Positions 11,660 to 20,090 of a stretch of 64,000 bases of DNA are shown piece after piece. The DNA lies in assembly GCA_902789725.1 (NCBI GenBank), contig CADAPC010000023.1, positions 62,001-126,000 on the forward strand, written 5' to 3'. Made by a program: the position numbers and the translations under genes. Origin of the DNA: an uncultured Bacteroidales bacterium (GTDB lineage: Bacteria; Bacteroidota; Bacteroidia; Bacteroidales; Bacteroidaceae). The notes under the pieces are model-generated. The model saw nothing but the letters and a program-made list of their open reading frames with translations, was not told where the DNA came from and ran no database searches. The stretch's first letter is position 1. Each line of letters opens with the position of its first letter.

Positions 11660-11768
11660 TATATATATTATGTGTATGTCTTTTACTCCTTTTCCACATG
11701 CCATCAAGTGGTCAGACTCTCACTCCTTCTCTGTCACAGCGATAGACATTTGGCATGACATTTGCAAA

Positions 11769-11866
11769 CGGGAAAACGTCATCTTCTATTCTCTCTTTTC
11801 CCTTTTTTCTACCCCTCCGCATCAAAACAGGCCTCCTCTATCCTCATAAATCCACTTTTTTTACCC
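11769..11866 (+). repeat. ~95-bp direct repeat upstream of mntA (copy 1)
   Basis: Imperfect direct repeat of 12662-12760. The last 44 bases (11821-11864 and 12714-12757) are identical, ending in CCACTTTTTTTAC. Both copies end 31-42 bp before a -7 box, so they sit immediately upstream of promoters. Confidence 0.9.
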
Positions 11867-11872
11867 AAACAC

Positions 11873-11902
11873 TTGAAACATCAAAAATAAATCGTACATT
11901 TG
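11873..11902 (+). promoter_or_regulatory. mntA promoter
   Basis: TTG (11873-11875), 19-bp spacer, TACATTTG (11895-11902). Transcription would begin near 11906, leaving about 6 nt before the first ATG (11912) or 18 nt before the second (11924). Confidence 0.7.
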
Positions 11903-11911
11903 CAAAAATAA

Positions 11912-12235
11912 ATGAAAGCGAACATGCGGACAAGACAAGAATATGTGGATATTATCAAGTCTCATGCCGATGAGTTGCGGTCGCGTTTCGGCATCACTTC
12001 CATGTTGCTGTTCGGCTCTGTGGCCAGAAACGAACATCATGAAGGGAGCGATGTTGACTTGTTTGTGACCATGCCTCCAAAGATGATGAACCACATTGCT
12101 GCGGCACAATACTTGAAAGAACTGTTGGGCAATGATGTCGATTTGATACAGGAACATCGTCACATGCGTCCTTTTTTCCGTGAACAAATAGAACGAGATG
12201 GCATCACTATCATACCGACAACTACAAATAGTTGA
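11912..12235 (+). CDS. mntA: MntA-type nucleotidyltransferase antitoxin
   Basis: 107 residues, a complete minimal nucleotidyltransferase (MNT) domain. The signature GSVARNEHHEGSDVDLFV (about 35-52) gives the G-S motif and the paired acidic residues D47 and D49. In the known family, MntA transfers AMP groups to a tyrosine of the partner HEPN toxin HepT and so silences it. The next frame downstream encodes HepT, overlapping the end of this gene by 38 nt, the usual order. The start is uncertain: ATG 11912 would leave almost no leader after the promoter, so ATG 11924 (MRTRQEY) is equally possible. Nothing suggests damage here, in contrast to its partner. Confidence 0.85.
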   Translation: MKANMRTRQEYVDIIKSHADELRSRFGITSMLLFGSVARNEHHEGSDVDLFVTMPPKMMNHIAAAQYLKELLGNDVDLIQEHRHMRPFFREQIERDGITIIPTTTNS

Positions 12236-12614
12236 AGACTATCTTGATCAGATACATCACGCCATTCTTGATTTGAAGGAATGAAACAAGGGCATTGACA
12301 ACCCAGACACATGGCTCATGTCTGTCGATGGGATGAAAACATTGGCGGCCAATTGTATGCTGCTTGAAGCAATCGGTGAAGGCTTCAAAAAAGTGGATGC
12401 CCTGACAAAGAAGCAGTTACTGCCTTCTCGCCCCGAAATACCATGGAAACAAGTGATGGGGATGCGTGACCATATTGCTCACGGCTACTTTGATATCAAT
12501 TCCGACCTCGTGTGGGACACCATACAAAATGATTTGTCCCCTTTGCAGGCGGCTGTTGAATTTCTGATTAAGAACCTATATACCATCATTCCGGTGGATG
12601 ATGAATTAGTGTAA
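12198..12614 (+). pseudogene. hepT: HepT-type HEPN toxin interrupted by an in-frame stop
   Basis: The frame opens with ATG at 12198 inside the mntA end and reads MASLSYRQLQIVEDYLDQIH, then HAILDLKE, then TGA at 12282-12284 (codon 29), and continues without shift as NKGIDNPDTWL to the stop at 12614. The continuation is a HEPN domain with the RNase motif RDHIAHGY (R-x4-H-x-Y), which contains the tyrosine that MntA modifies in this family. The sense codon lost was probably TGG or another codon one base from TGA. A protein restarting at ATG 12318 would keep the catalytic motif but lack about 40 N-terminal residues (the first helix). Dead toxin, shortened toxin, or a sequence error are the alternatives. 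Confidence 0.8.
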
Positions 12615-12661
12615 AAATAGGAAAACGATTAATCATAGATGGGTTGGAGATTCAGAAAGAT

Positions 12662-12760
12662 AGGGGAAACGTCACTTCCTCTTCACTCTTTCCCCTTTTT
12701 TCTTTCCCTCCGTATCAAAACAGGCCTCCTCTATCCTCATAAATCCACTTTTTTTACAAA
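12662..12760 (+). repeat. ~95-bp direct repeat upstream of the restriction-modification gene (copy 2)
   Basis: Second copy of 11769-11866, displaced by 893 bp; 44 bp identical (12714-12757). It begins about 50 bp after hepT and ends just before the next promoter, so the two copies bracket the mntA-hepT pair. Confidence 0.9.
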
Positions 12761-12776
12761 AACTCCTCCCAACCTT

Positions 12777-12806
12777 TTTGGCTTTTCTTTTTTTTCCCTA
12801 CCTTTG
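12777..12806 (+). promoter_or_regulatory. Promoter of the type ISP-like gene
   Basis: TTTG (12777-12780), 18-bp spacer, TACCTTTG (12799-12806). Transcription would begin near 12810, about 300 nt before the likely start codon at 13112, an unusually long leader for this window. Confidence 0.75.
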
Positions 12807-12890
12807 CCCTCGCAAGCGTTCGGCACCCTATGCCGTCCGTCCTTGCAGACATCGTGGGTATATTGAATCAACGTATTCAATTCTGAAGGT

Positions 12891-13026
12891 TCTAAGTTCA
12901 AAAATAACCCGACCAAGTTATGCAGAGAACCGAAGGAATGAGAGTACGTCTATATCGTATAGGCGTACCCCTTCCTTTTCATTTCTCTGCAATGGTTACT
13001 CTTGGTCGGGTGCTCCAGAACTTAGG
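12891..13026 (+). repeat. Long imperfect inverted repeat in the leader of the restriction-modification gene
   Basis: The arms meet near 12957. Paired blocks from outside inwards: CTAAGTTC/GAACTTAG, ACCCGACCAAG (12907-12917)/CTTGGTCGGGT (13001-13011), GCAGAGAA/TTCTCTGC, AGGAA/TTCCT, and GTACGTCTATA/TATAGGCGTAC at the tip. A third, direct copy of the ACCCGACCAA block lies at 13100-13109, two bases before the start codon. See the findings for the alternative pairing this allows. Confidence 0.85.
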
Positions 13027-13111
13027 GATGAAACTGCGGAAGGTGGTACGTTTTCATTTTGTCCCACTGTTGCTGACCAATACATTAGATTTCAAAAGCA
13101 CCCGACCAACC

Positions 13112-16100
13112 ATGCAACCGAATCTAACACAGGCGAGCCATACCCCTGCACCAACGTATGGCATCAACGACATTCTCGCCGACATCCGTCAGAAGTCTCT
13201 CACCGAACGGGAGAAAGGACAGGATTTCGAGCAGCTGATGAAACTATGGTTCCTCACCGACCCGCGCTATGCCAACCTGGAACGGGTGTGGCTGTGGGAG
13301 GAGTTCCCCGGGCGGAAAGACTTCGGGGGCACCGACCTGGGCATCGACCTCGTGGCACGTACCGACACGGGCGACTACTGGGCCATCCAGTGCAAGTGCT
13401 ACGACGAGGACACCACCATCGAGAAAGGCATGGTGGATAGTTTCTTGGCCAACTCCATCCGCACCTTCACCGAAGACGAAACCTTCCAGACACGTGGCTT
13501 CAGCAACCTCGTGTGGGTGGAAACCACACGCCGTCCGTGGGGAGTGAATGCACAGAAAGCCATCACCAACCTCACCTTGCCATTCAACAAAATCAATCTT
13601 TACGAACTGGAAAGTTCGTCGGTCGATTGGCTGAAGCTCCGTCAGGGACTCTACGGCAAGAAGGCACAACTCTCGGGAAAGCAACCACGCGCCCACCAAC
13701 TCCGTGCGATGGCGGACACTTATCGCCATTTTGTAGAAGAGGGCAACGAGCGTGGCAAACTCATCATGGCATGTGGCACAGGTAAGACCTACACCTCGCT
13801 GAAAATAGCTGAACAAATCACCGATAAGGACGGCTTCATCCTCTTCCTCGTGCCGAGCATCGCCCTGCTGGGACAGACTCTCAATGCGTGGATGAGCGAC
13901 CGCACCGATGACATGCGAGCCATCTGCATCTGTTCCGATGCCAAAGTGAGCCGCAAGATGCAGGACGACGATGCCACCGATGCCAGCATACAGGAACTGG
14001 CCGTGCCAGCCTCTACCAACGTGAAGTCGGTGCTGCGACAGTTACGCCGTTACGAGAAAGAGTCCGTTCGCATCGTTATCTTCTCCACCTACCAGAGCAT
14101 TGATGTGGTGAGCGACGCCCTTCATCAGTACGGAAGGGTGGTTGACCTCTGCGTTTGCGACGAGGCGCATCGCACCACAGGTGTGAAACTGAAAGACCGC
14201 GACGAGTCGAATTTCACCAAGGTGCACAACAACGACCTCATTCCTGCCCGTCGCCGGCTCTACATGACCGCCACACCTCGGCTCTATCGCGAGTCGGTCA
14301 AGGTGAAGGCTGCTGAGAATGATGACATCCTCTGCTCGATGGATGACGAGACCATTTACGGCAAGGAGTTCCACCGACTCACCTTCAACGATGCCGTCAG
14401 TCAGGGATTGCTGTGCGACTACAAGGTGCTGGTGCTCACAGTGAGCGAGGAAGACATCCCCAAGAGTATGGCAGACAATATCAAGGCGCAGTATCATGCT
14501 GCTTCGGAGGCAGACAAGACAAAAGAGTTACAGTTTGATGATGCCACCAAACTGATTGGGTGCATCAACGGGCTCTCCAAGCGCATCAAGGGCGACCACG
14601 GTGTGACCCGCGAGCAAGACCCTGTGCTGATGCACCGCGCCGTAGCCTTCTGCCAGACCATCAACCCCACCAAGAGCAATCCCAACTTCTCGTCCACGCA
14701 GATAGCCCGCTACTTTTCGCAAGTAAGCGACGACTATAAGAAAGACCTCTCCGAACAGGAGGCGGAGCATGTGGTGAACATCAAGGCGCAGCACATTGAC
14801 GGCTCGATGGATGCTGCTACCCGAAACGAGAAGTTGGCATGGCTGAAGGCAGAGGCTGCCGACCCCAACGAATGTCGTGTGCTGTGCAATGTGCGTTGTC
14901 TGAGCGAAGGGGTGGATGTGCCCGCTCTCGATGCCGTCATTTTCCTTTCGCCACGCAACAGCGAGGTGGAGGTGGTGCAGTCGGTGGGGCGTGTGATGCG
15001 CACTTTCGGCAAGAACACCGATAAGGAGAAGAAATACGGCTACATCATCATCCCCGTCATCGTGCCGAGTGATGTCACCCCCGAGCAGGCATTGAACGAC
15101 AACGAGCGTTTCAAGGTGGTGTGGACCATCCTCAATGCCCTCCGAAGCCATGATGAAGCCTTCAATGCCCATGTGAACCAAATCAATCTGAACAAGAAAC
15201 GTCCCGACAAAATCATTGCTGGCGGTGTGCCGAGCGGCAGTTACTCGATGGCGGAGGATGTCTATTCCTCCACGATGCGTGAGGCAGGCGATGAGGACGA
15301 TGCCATCATGCTTGATACGGCACAGGTTGCACAGCAGTTGGAACTCCGATTCGGTGCTTTGCAGGATGGCATTTACGCCAAACTGGTGGAGAAGGTGGGC
15401 GATAAACTCTATTGGGAGAACTGGGCAAAGTCAGTCGGAGACATAGCCCGCAAGTTTATCGAACGCATCACACGGATGGTGAAGGAGAATCTGACTGCCC
15501 GTGAGCACTTCCAAGAGTTTGTGGCAGGTCTGCAACGCAACATCAATCCGAGTGTGGATGAGGGACAAGCCATCGAGATGCTGGCCCAACACATGATTAT
15601 GCGGCCCGTGTTCGATGCCTTGTTCAACGACTATCAGTTTGTCAACAACAACGCGGTGAGCAAGTCGATGCAGTTCATGCTGGAGTTTCTCGAAACGGAA
15701 GGCTTTGAGATGGACACACAGGTACTGGATAAGTTCTACCAGTCGGTGCGGGTCAACGTGGGCAACATCGACAATCTGGAGGGAAAGCAGACGGTCATCA
15801 AGAACCTCTACGAGAAGTTCTTCAAGGGCGCATTCCCGCTCACCGTGGAGAAACTTGGCATTGTCTATACGCCTGTGGAGTGCGTCGATTTCATCATCCA
15901 TTCGGTCGAGGACATCTTGCGTGAGGACTTCAACACGTCGCTGACTGAGGAGAATGTGCACATTCTCGACCCCTTCGTGGGCACGGGCACGTTCATCACT
16001 CGCCTGATGCAGAGTGGGCTCATCAAGAAGGAAGACTTGCGTCGCAAGTACAAGAACGAGATTCATTGCAACGAAATCGTCCTCTTGGCTTACTATATTG

Positions 16101-16723
16101 CCGACATCAACATCGAGAGTGTCTATCACGACATCATGGGCGGCGACCAACCCGACTACCTGCCTTACGATGGCATCTGCTTGACCGACACCTTCCAACT
16201 GAACGAACACGACAACAAAACCTTCTATTCTCAGTTGTTTCCTGAAAACTCGGAGAGATTAAGAAAGCAGAAGAAGGCTGAAGTAAGGGTGATTATCGGA
16301 AATCCGCCATACTCGGTGGGGCAGAACTCGGCAAACGACAATGCGCAGAACTTGAAGTATCCACATCTTGACAAACGGGTGGCTGATACATACGCGGCTC
16401 ATACAAATGCCACTAATAAGAACTCTCTCTACGATAGTTACATCAAGGCTTTCCGTTGGGCAAGCGACCGCATAGCCCAATGTCCCGATGGTGGTGTCGT
16501 GGCGTTCATCAGTAACGGAGCATGGATAGACGGCAATGCCCAAGACGGTATGCGTGCCTGTCTCGAACAAGAGTTTGACAAAATCTATGTCTTCAATTTG
16601 CGAGGCAATCAGCGCACCAGTGGGGAACTCTCTCGTAAAGAAGGAGGTAAAATCTTTGGCTCTGGCTCTCGTACCCCCATAGCCATCACCATCTTAGTCA
16701 AAAAAGCAAAAAATAATTCATGA
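13112..16723 (+). CDS. Type ISP-like restriction-modification protein, nuclease-helicase-methyltransferase part
   Basis: 1203 residues from the ATG at 13112; the frame is open back to 12920, but that stretch is the inverted repeat and does not resemble protein. Order: Mrr-like PD-(D/E)XK nuclease (about 60-110, GGTDLGIDLV then QCK), superfamily 2 helicase (Walker A ACGTGKT about 221-227, DEAH about 350, MTATPR about 384, QSVGRVMR about 622), and N6-adenine methyltransferase (DPFVGTGTF about 953, NPPY about 1063). In single-chain type ISP enzymes such as LlaGI the target-recognition domain follows in the same chain. Here the frame stops at 16721-16723 (ILVKKAKNNS), and the expected continuation starts at 16816 as a separate ORF. 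Together they give about 1660 residues, the usual length. Confidence 0.88.
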   Translation: MQPNLTQASHTPAPTYGINDILADIRQKSLTEREKGQDFEQLMKLWFLTDPRYANLERVWLWEEFPGRKDFGGTDLGIDLVARTDTGDYWAIQCKCYDEDTTIEKGMVDSFLANSIRTFTEDETFQTRGFSNLVWVETTRRPWGVNAQKAITNLTLPFNKINLYELESSSVDWLKLRQGLYGKKAQLSGKQPRAHQLRAMADTYRHFVEEGNERGKLIMACGTGKTYTSLKIAEQITDKDGFILFLVPSIALLGQTLNAWMSDRTDDMRAICICSDAKVSRKMQDDDATDASIQELAVPASTNVKSVLRQLRRYEKESVRIVIFSTYQSIDVVSDALHQYGRVVDLCVCDEAHRTTGVKLKDRDESNFTKVHNNDLIPARRRLYMTATPRLYRESVKVKAAENDDILCSMDDETIYGKEFHRLTFNDAVSQGLLCDYKVLVLTVSEEDIPKSMADNIKAQYHAASEADKTKELQFDDATKLIGCINGLSKRIKGDHGVTREQDPVLMHRAVAFCQTINPTKSNPNFSSTQIARYFSQVSDDYKKDLSEQEAEHVVNIKAQHIDGSMDAATRNEKLAWLKAEAADPNECRVLCNVRCLSEGVDVPALDAVIFLSPRNSEVEVVQSVGRVMRTFGKNTDKEKKYGYIIIPVIVPSDVTPEQALNDNERFKVVWTILNALRSHDEAFNAHVNQINLNKKRPDKIIAGGVPSGSYSMAEDVYSSTMREAGDEDDAIMLDTAQVAQQLELRFGALQDGIYAKLVEKVGDKLYWENWAKSVGDIARKFIERITRMVKENLTAREHFQEFVAGLQRNINPSVDEGQAIEMLAQHMIMRPVFDALFNDYQFVNNNAVSKSMQFMLEFLETEGFEMDTQVLDKFYQSVRVNVGNIDNLEGKQTVIKNLYEKFFKGAFPLTVEKLGIVYTPVECVDFIIHSVEDILREDFNTSLTEENVHILDPFVGTGTFITRLMQSGLIKKEDLRRKYKNEIHCNEIVLLAYYIADINIESVYHDIMGGDQPDYLPYDGICLTDTFQLNEHDNKTFYSQLFPENSERLRKQKKAEVRVIIGNPPYSVGQNSANDNAQNLKYPHLDKRVADTYAAHTNATNKNSLYDSYIKAFRWASDRIAQCPDGGVVAFISNGAWIDGNAQDGMRACLEQEFDKIYVFNLRGNQRTSGELSRKEGGKIFGSGSRTPIAITILVKKAKNNS

Positions 16724-16809
16724 ATAATTCGTGGATAATTCATGATCATTCGTGTTTTTTCTTCAACATAAATTATCACAAATTATCCACGAATTAATCA
16801 TAAATAATT
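16715..16809 (+). repeat. AT-rich inverted-repeat insert splitting the type ISP-like gene
   Basis: Perfect 15-bp inverted repeat AATTCGTGGATAATT (16726-16740) and AATTATCCACGAATT (16781-16795), extended by imperfect arms to about 40 bp each (roughly 16715-16754 and 16768-16809). The segment lies exactly where the methyltransferase ORF ends and the recognition-domain ORF begins. It supplies the stop of the first ORF and carries a TAA (16801-16803) upstream of the second. Confidence 0.8.
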
Positions 16810-16815
16810 AGTATT

Positions 16816-18186
16816 ATGGCAACGATTTATTATCACGATATTGGCGACTATCTGAGTCGCGAACAGAAACTGAAAATGGTGCATGACTTCCGCTCTGTCA
16901 AGGGAATGGAATGGACAGAAATTGTGCCAAATGAAAAAAGGGATTGGATAAACGTGAGGGACGGGTTTTTTGATGGGTTGATAGCAATTACGGATAAGTC
17001 ATCAAGTCGGACTTTCTTCGAGAAGTGTACGACAAATGGACTAAAGACTGGTAGAGATGCTTGGGCATACAATTTCTCGCAACAATCATTGAATAACAAC
17101 ATGCATATTTCTGTTGACTATTATAATGAACAGAGAGAAAAAGTGCTCAAAAGAGAAATTGAAGGAATACAACCCAATCTTCGTAGGATTAGTTTGGATG
17201 AAGGGATTATTGCTAGCTGTAAATCCAATAAAAAGATTTCATTTAGCGAAAGTTACGTTATTAAGGCAGTTTATAGACCATTCTGTAAACAACATGTATA
17301 TTACCACAAGCCGTGGCTACAGCGAACCTATCAGTTACCGAGAAGTTTTCCTAAAGGATATAATGACAATATAACAATATGTATTCCAGGTGTGGGAGGA
17401 ACAAAGCCATTTCATCCTTTAATTGCGAATTGTATTCCTGACCTTGGCTTTAATAGTGGAAGTCAATGCCTTCCTCTCTACTACTACGAAGAGAACACCC
17501 ATAAGCAGAAGACTCTTTTTGATGACACTTCCGACGATGACTACATCCGTCATGATGGCATAACGGACTGGATATTGAAGGAGGTGAGGAACCGCTACAA
17601 TGGGGCAAAGAACATCACGAAGGAGATGATTTTCTACTATGTCTATGGCTTGCTGCACTCGAAGGACTACCGTGAGCGTTTCGCTGCCGACCTGAAGAAG
17701 TCGCTGCCAAGAATCCCTATCGTGGAGCGCATAGAGGACTTCATGGCGTTCTACAAGGCAGGCAAGCAACTGGCAGAACTCCATCTGAACTACGAGGAGG
17801 TGCCTCCGCATCCCGAAGTGGTGGTGCACATCACCGCCAAACGTGCCGACCAAGACGATTACGACTACTTCCGTGTGGATCCGAAGATGAAGTTCCGCAG
17901 CAAGGACGACAAGAGCGTCATCTTCTACAACGCCAACATCCGTCTGGAGAACATTCCCTTGAAAGCCTACGACTACATCGTGAACGGCAAGAGTGCCATC
18001 GAATGGATAGTTGAACGCTACTGCGTCTCCATCGACAAGAAGTCGCTCATCAAGAACGATGCCAACGACTGGGCACGTGAGCATGGCAAACCGCGCTACA
18101 TCCTTGACCTCCTCCTCTCCGTCATCAACGTCAGCACCCAAACAGTGGACATCGTCAACAACCTCCCACACCTCACCTTTGACTGA
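16816..18186 (+). CDS. Type ISP-like restriction-modification protein, target-recognition part
   Basis: 456 residues, starting ATIYYHDIGDYLSREQKL. That sequence is what normally follows the '...ILVK' end of the methyltransferase domain in single-chain type ISP-like proteins, so this is the C-terminal target-recognition and coupling region of the enzyme begun at 13112. The first half (to about residue 220) is more A/T-rich and divergent, as expected for a DNA-recognition segment. The second half (RHDGITDWILKEVRNRYNGA, then ITKEMIFYYVYGLLHSKDYR) is the conserved C-terminal helical domain. It is in a different frame from the upstream ORF, 92 bp later. Whether the separate chain still assembles with the nuclease-methyltransferase chain is unknown. 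Confidence 0.85.
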   Translation: MATIYYHDIGDYLSREQKLKMVHDFRSVKGMEWTEIVPNEKRDWINVRDGFFDGLIAITDKSSSRTFFEKCTTNGLKTGRDAWAYNFSQQSLNNNMHISVDYYNEQREKVLKREIEGIQPNLRRISLDEGIIASCKSNKKISFSESYVIKAVYRPFCKQHVYYHKPWLQRTYQLPRSFPKGYNDNITICIPGVGGTKPFHPLIANCIPDLGFNSGSQCLPLYYYEENTHKQKTLFDDTSDDDYIRHDGITDWILKEVRNRYNGAKNITKEMIFYYVYGLLHSKDYRERFAADLKKSLPRIPIVERIEDFMAFYKAGKQLAELHLNYEEVPPHPEVVVHITAKRADQDDYDYFRVDPKMKFRSKDDKSVIFYNANIRLENIPLKAYDYIVNGKSAIEWIVERYCVSIDKKSLIKNDANDWAREHGKPRYILDLLLSVINVSTQTVDIVNNLPHLTFD

Positions 18187-18262: not shown

Positions 18263-18325
18263 CCCCAACCAAATAATTATCCTGAAAGGATTATCTTTAT
18301 TGGATATAATTCTCAAAAGAGCATA

Positions 18326-18360
18326 AAAAGGGCTGACTTCCTCGTCGGAGCCAGCCCTTT
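18326..18360 (-). terminator. Terminator of the acyl-CoA dehydrogenase operon (GGGCTGACTTC family)
   Basis: AAAAGGGCTGACTTC with GGAGCCAGCCCTTTT: a 15-position stem with one mismatch and one wobble, U-rich on both strands. It is 20 bp past the dehydrogenase stop and closely resembles the orphan hairpin at 11626-11659. Confidence 0.8.
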
Positions 18361-18380
18361 TATTATAATATGTGTGTATC

Positions 18381-20090
18381 TTATTCCTGCACGTAGCTTG
18401 CCAGCTCGTCCACATTGAGCGCGTGGATGTAGTTGCAGTGCTTGGCTACTTCGCTCTCGGCATAGTTGATGAAGACGGTGAGCGACTTGCCGAAGAGCTC
18501 GGGGGCGCGCTGTGTGTCTTGCAAGAGCAAGTGCGACATGATGACGTAGGCTGTCATTTCGTAGAGCTTGCGGGCGCAGAGGTCGAGGAAATCTTGATTA
18601 CCTGGCTCCTTGGCCTTGTCAATGCAAGCGGAGAGCTTCTCGTTCATGGCCTTGATGCGCTCTGCGTAGGCAGCATACTCTGCAGCCACTGGTTCTGCCT
18701 CGAAATCCTTGATGACATTGGCGTAGAAACCTGATGTGATGTAGCGGATGGCGGCTACGGTTTGGAGCTGCGTGGTGCCCTCGTAGATGGACATGATGCG
18801 GGCATCGCGATAAACGCGCTGGCACTTGTACTCCAGCATGAAACCTGAACCGCCATGCACCTGGATGGAGTCGTAGGCCGACTCGTTGGCGAACTCGGAA
18901 TTCATGCCCTTGGCCAGCGGCGTGAAGGCATCGGCGAGCTTTGAGTACTTCTTGAACTCGTCGCGCTCCTCGGGGGTGAGTTTGCGCTCTTTGCTGATGT
19001 CGTCGAGTGCCTTATAGATATCCACATAGCGGGCTGTCATGTAGAGGAGTGAACGACCAGCGTCAAGTTTGGCCTTGATGCGGCTAATCATGTCATAGAC
19101 AGCCGGGAAGTGGATAATTTCCTTGCCGAACTGCTTGCGGTCGCGGGCGTAGTTGATGGCCTCTTCGTAGGCAGCCTGTTCGGCACCTACCGACTGAGAA
19201 GCAATGCCCAGACGAGCACCGTTCATCAACCCCATTACGTACTTGATGAGACCAAGTTTCTCCGAACCGCACAGCTCGGCCTTGGCATTCTTATAGACGA
19301 GTTCGCAAGTGGGGCTGCCATGAATGCCCAGTTTGTTCTCAATGCGGCGCACGTTCACTCCACCGTTGCGCTTGTCGTAGATGAACATGGACAGGCCACG
19401 TCCATCGCGAGTGCCTTCTACTGAACGAGCCAGCACAAGGTGGATGTCGGCATCGCCGTTGGTGATGAAGCGCTTCACACCGTTCAGGCGCCAGCAATTC
19501 TCCTTCTCATCGAAGGTGGCCTTGAGCATCACGGACTGAAGGTCGGAACCTGCGTCAGGCTCAGTCAAGTCCATCGACATGGTCTCGCCGGCGCAAACAC
19601 GAGGAATGTAACGCTTGCGCTGGTCTTCGTCACCAAACTCATAGAGGGTCTCGATACAGTCTTGGAGCGACCAGATGTTTTCGAAGCCTGCATCCCCCTC
19701 GGCGATGATTTCGTTGGCAGCGGTGTAAACCACGTTAGGCAGGTTGAGGCCGCCGTAACGACGTGGCATGGTCATGCCGCAGAGTCCTGCCTTGATGGTG
19801 GCATCGAGGTTTTCGTAGGTCTTGCTGGCATAGCGCACACGGCCGTTCTCGCAGTGGGGGCCTTCGGCATCAACTTCCTCAGAGTTGGGACCGATGATGT
19901 TGGCGTTGATGTCGCCTGTGATTTCGAGCAGGCTGTCATAGTTCTCCTGTGCATCCTCATAGTCCTTGGGTGCATAGTCGTACTGACCGTAGTCAGCATA
20001 ATTGCGTTCCTTGAGTTCAACAATACGCTGCATCAGTGGATGCTGCATGTGAAACTTTATCTCAGGAACATCGGTATAGGAATTTGCCAT
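18381..20090 (-). CDS. Acyl-CoA dehydrogenase
   Basis: 569 residues, longer than the ~380 of butyryl-CoA dehydrogenase and matching the subfamily with an added C-terminal helical domain. Seen: an N-terminal helical domain, a flavin-binding middle domain (TMSMDLTEPDAGSDLQSVML, then NGVKRFITNGDADIHLVLAR), a C-terminal helical domain (ARLGIASQSVGAEQAAYEEA, then YARDRKQFGKEI) and the usual YEGTTQLQ motif. It oxidises acyl-CoA to enoyl-CoA, or works in the reverse direction, with the electron-transfer flavoprotein as partner. The etfA stop is 2 bp upstream of its start, so etfB-etfA-dehydrogenase form one operon. Substrate chain length cannot be told from sequence. Confidence 0.92.
   Translation of the reverse strand: MANSYTDVPEIKFHMQHPLMQRIVELKERNYADYGQYDYAPKDYEDAQENYDSLLEITGDINANIIGPNSEEVDAEGPHCENGRVRYASKTYENLDATIKAGLCGMTMPRRYGGLNLPNVVYTAANEIIAEGDAGFENIWSLQDCIETLYEFGDEDQRKRYIPRVCAGETMSMDLTEPDAGSDLQSVMLKATFDEKENCWRLNGVKRFITNGDADIHLVLARSVEGTRDGRGLSMFIYDKRNGGVNVRRIENKLGIHGSPTCELVYKNAKAELCGSEKLGLIKYVMGLMNGARLGIASQSVGAEQAAYEEAINYARDRKQFGKEIIHFPAVYDMISRIKAKLDAGRSLLYMTARYVDIYKALDDISKERKLTPEERDEFKKYSKLADAFTPLAKGMNSEFANESAYDSIQVHGGSGFMLEYKCQRVYRDARIMSIYEGTTQLQTVAAIRYITSGFYANVIKDFEAEPVAAEYAAYAERIKAMNEKLSACIDKAKEPGNQDFLDLCARKLYEMTAYVIMSHLLLQDTQRAPELFGKSLTVFINYAESEVAKHCNYIHALNVDELASYVQE

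Follow-up and report, generated by a model that had tools for sequence, protein, structure and literature searches.

In trp-type attenuators and in the Bacteroides tetQ leader, as is generally known, one strand chooses between two partners, and one of the choices produces a terminator-like helix or hides a start. In hok-type mRNAs, direct and inverted copies alternate, and the inverted strand finds several partners during and after transcription. Among restriction-modification (RM) systems, RNA pairing restrains the genes of EcoRI and Eco29kI, where the antisense RNAs arise from reverse promoters (reviewed in PMC3874152). How costly and potentially self-harming bacterial defence is restrained and switched on is, more generally, a largely open question.

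The window described here, that is the whole stretch of 64,000 nucleotides analysed, derives from an uncultured Bacteroidales bacterium and contains an RM gene preceded by a long leader. Sequence comparison and folding models make it probable that the leader RNA acts in cis, controlling the gene by adopting one of two folds that exclude each other. The first-pass annotation had proposed an RNA switch at this point, in which one segment pairs either within a 5' hairpin or with a copy next to the start codon. Every base that it gave for the repeat copies was found at its coordinates when the sequence was re-checked: 12907-12917 forms a perfect 11-bp pairing with 13001-13011, and 13002-13014 a perfect 13-bp pairing with 13097-13109, stopping 2 bases 5' of the ATG at 13112. 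The features of the locus are the following.

12799 to 12806, + strand: -7 promoter element TACCTTTG, consensus TAnnTTTG, recognized by sequence; predicted transcript start near 12812
about 12812 to 13127, + strand: leader, member of a structured RNA family
12812 to 12846, + strand: P1, 5' terminal hairpin, variable in sequence among members, paired in the window fold
12847 to 12858, + strand: conserved motif AGACATCGTGGG, consensus near GACAUnGYGGG, from the genus alignment and most classes
12863 to 12880, + strand: P2 hairpin TTGAATcaacgtATTCAA (TTAGAT..ATCTAA in other classes), from comparison across members
12888 to 12893, + strand: c strand, whose partner c' (12926-12931) offers an alternative to rod formation
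12892 to 13025, + strand: long rod hairpin, from individual folds, covariance model and covariation
within the rod, + strand: helices d (12892-12899/13018-13025), a (12907-12917/13001-13011) and e (12921-12934/12978-12991), and the apical part (12944-12968)
12907 to 12917, + strand: a5, first copy ACCCGACCAAG
12963 to 12975, + strand: b' strand GCGTACCCCTTCC, 3' strand of the tip, partner of the tip 5' strand or of b3
13001 to 13014, + strand: a' strand (anti-start) CTTGGTCGGGTGCT, partner of a5 or a3
13038 to 13051, + strand: b3 strand GGAAGGTGGTACGT, second partner of b'
13051 to 13062, + strand: U-rich tract directly 3' of b3, a terminator-like tail
13085 to 13127, + strand: start hairpin TTAGATT/AATCTAA around a3 and the ATG; the constant part of the leader ends with it
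13097 to 13109, + strand: a3, third copy AGCACCCGACCAA, ending two bases 5' of the ATG
13112 to 16723, + strand: type ISP RM enzyme, first ORF, 1203 aa (Mrr_cat_2, ResIII, Helicase_C, ISP_coupler, N6_Mtase)
16816 to 18186, + strand: type ISP C-terminal specificity domain, separate ORF, 456 aa

As a correction, the RM gene encodes a type ISP enzyme and is split over two ORFs. The 1203-aa ORF occurs likewise in genomes G006 and G014, so that the split is common to them; in the window the two ORFs are parted by about 90 bases (16724-16815), carrying an inverted repeat ATTCGTGGATAATT..AATTATCCACGAAT. The leader length of about 300 nt was upheld, counting from the -7 element, whose Bacteroidota consensus was taken from PMC7366714. 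This element was found 5' of the core in 32 of the 36 members listed, and by sequence the leader sits between the TAnnTTTG promoter and the ATG of the gene. A transcript starting downstream of 13026, named beforehand as incompatible with a switch, is not what the sequence predicts, the promoter lying 5' of the whole leader. Further upstream, a MntA/HepT-like toxin-antitoxin pair is flanked on both sides by directly repeated sequence, each copy about 50 bases long (11816-11865 and 12707-12760), a layout as if recombination had inserted the cassette 5' of the leader promoter; in G006, the sequence upstream of 12787 is absent.

In order to find relatives, several searches were performed. Within the genus, 13 further genomes were found to contain members, which are 74-98% identical to the leader. 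When 84,980 species genomes were searched with a pattern derived from the rod tip, TACGYYY..RGGCGTACYCYTTCCT, 81 stretches matched; 80 are listed as loci, and nearly all belong to rumen Prevotellaceae/Bacteroidales. One match, in Pirellula (L139), was devoid of leader features and was regarded as due to chance. A covariance model of the core (R1; 33 sequences, 58 pairs) was positive for 35 of 399 genomes, representing 9 of the 30 genera of the family, and detected no member in a sample of about 370 other genomes of the order. Altogether roughly 95 members were found, all within one bacterial family, a count to be read bearing in mind that many are metagenome-assembled and that related sequences inflate it. 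No plausible match to an Rfam 15 covariance model was obtained for the window leader or for four relatives, and no description of such leaders was found in the open-licence papers searched; the family, which occurs in rumen Prevotella-like bacteria, is apparently undescribed.

The ability of the leader to fold was evaluated first as a whole. The predicted energy is -107.4 kcal/mol, compared to -78.5 (sd 5.2) for shuffled sequences, with a z of -5.6. The rod appeared in all 33 training cores when these were folded individually, with stabilities ranging from -53 to -75 kcal/mol. RNAalifold, run on the raw MAFFT alignment, recovered only the rod tip, as column-wise folding cannot cope with stems that change so rapidly; the problem was solved by folding the sequences one by one and by the covariance model. 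Among 42 distinct members, 48 of the 58 rod pairs show changes on both sides, and 81.6% of the cells are paired, compared to 63% in shuffles. The covariation score is 0.484, against 0.169 for shuffled and 0.06-0.11 for slid versions (452 cells against 154 and 74-131, respectively), in an alignment which was fitted to the covariance model and therefore leans towards it. The strands of the rod were tested separately as duplexes, and gave -29.7 kcal/mol when matched and -17.7 when mismatched; this independent test and the size of the covariation effect make an artefact unlikely.

Well-kept rod pairs include 151 G-U and only 20 A-C combinations. Since a G-U pair of the opposite strand would look like A-C, this excess indicates selection on the sense-strand RNA. 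The rod is a real RNA structure, maintained on the sense strand through compensatory substitutions, and a plain repeat insertion, which had been mentioned as the alternative, is rejected on the grounds of covariation and G-U excess. The proposal that relatives would keep the hairpin through compensated changes was borne out, except for a clean deletion in G010 and G041. The leaders of these two genomes (L013, L014) preserve promoter, P1, P2 and the b3 region; their start copy has drifted by one base in both.

The second pairing, between a' and the start copy a3, was analyzed in 38 members. In the window, the helix between a' and the start region scores better than all of 300 dinucleotide shuffles (p 0.003, the floor of the test). 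Perfect a'-a3 helices of 8-13 bp were present in 18 of the members, mostly ending 0-4 bases 5' of the ATG, all with p <=0.023 against shuffles and most of them at the floor. Sixteen members aligned by hand display 12 different a' sequences. In the a3-bearing subgroup to which the window belongs, a5 and a' are paired in 139 out of 144 cells over 12 variants, and a' and a3 in 141 out of 144. The three strands change in concert, as expected if both pairings matter, and by sequence both mutually exclusive pairings are conserved in this subgroup. In the remaining members tested no clear a3 was found, the two or three marginal scores (L093, L207) being weak, and a3 was not found in the Dam, BrxP, SspB and DrmD classes or in the HmaA-like L123. 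The switch proposal therefore stands for the hairpin and, within the window's subgroup, for the two exclusive pairings, kept by concerted compensatory change; occlusion of the start is not the only output of the family, and is rejected as a family-wide one. The description of the left copy as a start-like unit proved overstated: ATGCA does follow both direct copies (ATG at 12920 and 13112), but the ATG at 12920, after a5, is not kept in relatives. No reading frame in the 5' part was seen, by eye, to be kept across classes, and a leader-peptide attenuator was rejected on this basis.

Two side observations concern the start copy. In L083 and L191 the copy preceding the ATG takes in the adjoining d strand, and is longer than in the window (about 20 bases). 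In L190 it precedes an ORF of about 20 codons (MKNL...), whose ATGA overlaps the possible start of a type III mod gene, an arrangement which suggests translational coupling.

The arrangement of a' and a3 could in principle also serve at the DNA level: recombination of 13002-13014 with 13097-13109 would flip an 82-base segment and cause phase variation. It is general knowledge that inverted repeats of such size flank invertible Bacteroides promoters, and that RM genes are often phase-variable. However, all members seen show a single orientation, none having the inverted arrangement, b3 and the U-rich tract keep a constant orientation, and the promoter lies outside the segment. An invertible segment is thus rejected as extremely improbable.

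Folding of the window leader agrees with the two exclusive pairings of the leader switch. With the full leader, the start copy is free (a3-a' pairing probability 0.05); once the 5' strand is removed, it is fully paired (1.00). Results for other members were mixed: in several relatives the 3' fragment shows no preference for a'-a3, and L083 and L190 prefer this pairing even with the full leader. All these folds are nested, and a'-a3 and b'-b3 formed together would cross in a pseudoknot, so that the two cannot be weighed against each other in this way.

The b'-b3 pairing is a second competing helix, not included in the original proposal. The predicted duplex reaches -30.5 kcal/mol in the window and -17 to -37 in representatives, and is immediately followed by U-rich sequence, the mean T fraction of the ten bases 3' of b3 being 0.72 over 90 loci. 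The two strands match better within than between members (51 of 20000 permutations), and so do c and c' (helix score 15.0 matched, 12.9 mismatched between members; 0 of 20000 permutations), although neither count is a strict probability, same-class representatives being related. By sequence, the combination looks like a terminator competing with the rod, but the b'-b3 loop is long, and the site was not listed by a simple terminator scan. In the rod, c and b3 are found at the base and c' and b' at the tip, so that for steric reasons both pairings would be expected to exclude it.

The following scheme is proposed. In a first state, the 5' strand (d, a5, e and the 5' strand of the tip) would pair with the 3' strand (b', e', a' and d') to form one rod; b3 and the start copy a3 would remain free, and the gene would be expressed. 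In a second state, the 5' strand would be unavailable, for example because c-c' or the P1/P2 domain sequesters it, because a factor binds it, or because cleavage removes it. In this case b' would pair with b3 beside the U-rich tract, causing an early end of transcription and, in the window's subgroup, a' would pair with a3, hiding the start codon. This wiring is derived from sequence and folding, and we infer in the same way the assignment of the expressed state, termination at b'-b3 and a sensing role for P1/P2. Given the stability of the rod, the second state would need an active cause.

Such a cause could be RNase III, with the rod serving as a processing site or as a stability element: a cut would remove the 5' strand, and the 3' fragment would fold shut. 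With its roughly 58 pairs, the rod would be well suited as a double-stranded substrate, and the 3' fragment of the window, taken alone, pairs a3 completely. Control would then be exerted through processing rather than sensing, as a special case of the switch and not in contradiction to it. This explanation leaves the conserved upstream P1/GACAU/P2 region and c-c' unaccounted for, and is regarded as possible but rather unlikely.

The region upstream of the rod has its own conservation, and by sequence the P1/GACAUnGYGGG/P2 domain may be a sensor. P1 differs in sequence in relatives, where a hairpin is still possible as judged by eye, and P2 is absent from the minimum-energy fold of the window leader. 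The P1 regions of L190, L191, L197 and L200 have in common an element TCAGCGGA(A/G), which may be another conserved motif of the putative sensor domain.

The leader precedes a variety of genes. Among the relatives in the genus, these encode an EptA-like sulfatase-fold protein or an LpxL-like acyltransferase, besides the RM enzyme found in the window. G030 is collinear with the window (11710-13127 at 89% and 18320-19736 at 88%), and EptA-like and other genes stand there in place of the ISP RM gene (13127 to about 18091; L206). Homology extends through the whole start hairpin and the first five codons of the gene, and stops at 13127. The gene has therefore been exchanged at one site having its junction at 13127, the leader being a fixed socket behind which the cargo is swapped, and this would explain the N-terminus MxxNL common to unrelated proteins, as well as the presence of surface genes among the exceptions described below. 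Leaders truncated at the 5' side (L021, L010), limited to promoter, P1, P2 and little more, or to half a hairpin, were observed in G014, where a KilA-N-like gene follows, and in G043, in front of a different gene.

The exchange of the gene behind the leader at one chromosomal site, the exact loss of the hairpin in two genomes and the truncated leaders before other genes would also fit a DNA-level element, either a mobile palindrome or a recombination site for cassette exchange, of which the RNA structure would be a by-product. The prevalence of G-U over A-C is, however, not expected of a DNA palindrome. The leader is always promoter-proximal and in one orientation to the gene, with a3 fixed directly 5' of the ATG, and exchange of cargo is itself compatible with RNA control. 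The own genome contains a single copy of the hairpin, and other genomes mostly one or two, also promoter-proximal, so that a MITE or dispersed repeat is rejected. No match was found in viral contigs, plasmids or phages (one query each), and a phage or plasmid origin is rejected on this basis. Altogether, a DNA-level element is considered improbable, and control by the leader RNA remains the preferred reading.

When the Pirellula match is left aside, the downstream gene could be assigned for 73 of 79 pattern loci, several by N-terminal similarity to a scanned member, without a scan of their own, and 68 of these genes encode defence proteins. Dam-type methyltransferases account for 47 of the 68 (the frame is broken in two of them, and a DpnII nuclease follows one). 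The others are 7 type III mod, 3 ISP, 2 IIG-like, 4 BrxP and 2 HKD-Snf2 genes, with one SspB, one DrmD and one HmaA-like gene as single cases; four EptA-like genes and one LpxL are the exceptions. Members found later precede defence genes of type IIG (L193), type II-like methyltransferase (L191, L197), PDC-M33A (L192) and HmaA (L198) kind and, judging by the N-terminus, DndC/SspD-like (L208) and SspB-like (L207) genes; L045 (Acyl_transf_3), L194, L195 and L196 are followed by non-defence genes. These are raw counts of loci; genes of these kinds generally make up a small share of any genome. As the Dam type dominates the counts, the variety of defence kinds, of which there are about a dozen, is more telling. 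By sequence, then, the leader family precedes mostly defence genes, which, like the b'-b3 helix with its U-rich tail, goes beyond the single locus originally annotated.

If true, a conserved leader before RM, phosphorothioation/BREX-like and DISARM/Hma-like genes would represent a common control layer, and the sequence of the family would help to locate defence genes. The swapping of genes behind an unchanged leader would also explain how newly arrived cargo comes under control. A doubtful extension is that one RNA sensor, horizontally exchanged, puts many unrelated anti-phage systems, together with some cell-surface genes, of rumen Bacteroidaceae under a common signal. This might be an effect that phage infection has on the cell, for example when translation, an RNase or a nucleotide pool is lost.

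Compared to the systems mentioned at the beginning, the window leader shares with trp-type and tetQ attenuators the strand choosing between two partners, one choice being a terminator-like helix or a hidden start. It differs from them in that no conserved leader peptide was seen, in its two interleaved direct-inverted-direct sets, and in that one leader serves many unrelated genes. Like riboswitches, the family has a 5' domain with conserved unpaired bases (GACAUnGYGGG and the P2 loop) before the expression platform, but the downstream genes have no common metabolic pathway and the leader has no Rfam match. The alternating direct and inverted copies recall hok-type mRNAs, from which the leader is set apart by its product, a large defence enzyme. 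As in EcoRI and Eco29kI, pairing between RNA strands would restrain an RM gene; in the window, however, the antisense strand is within the leader itself.
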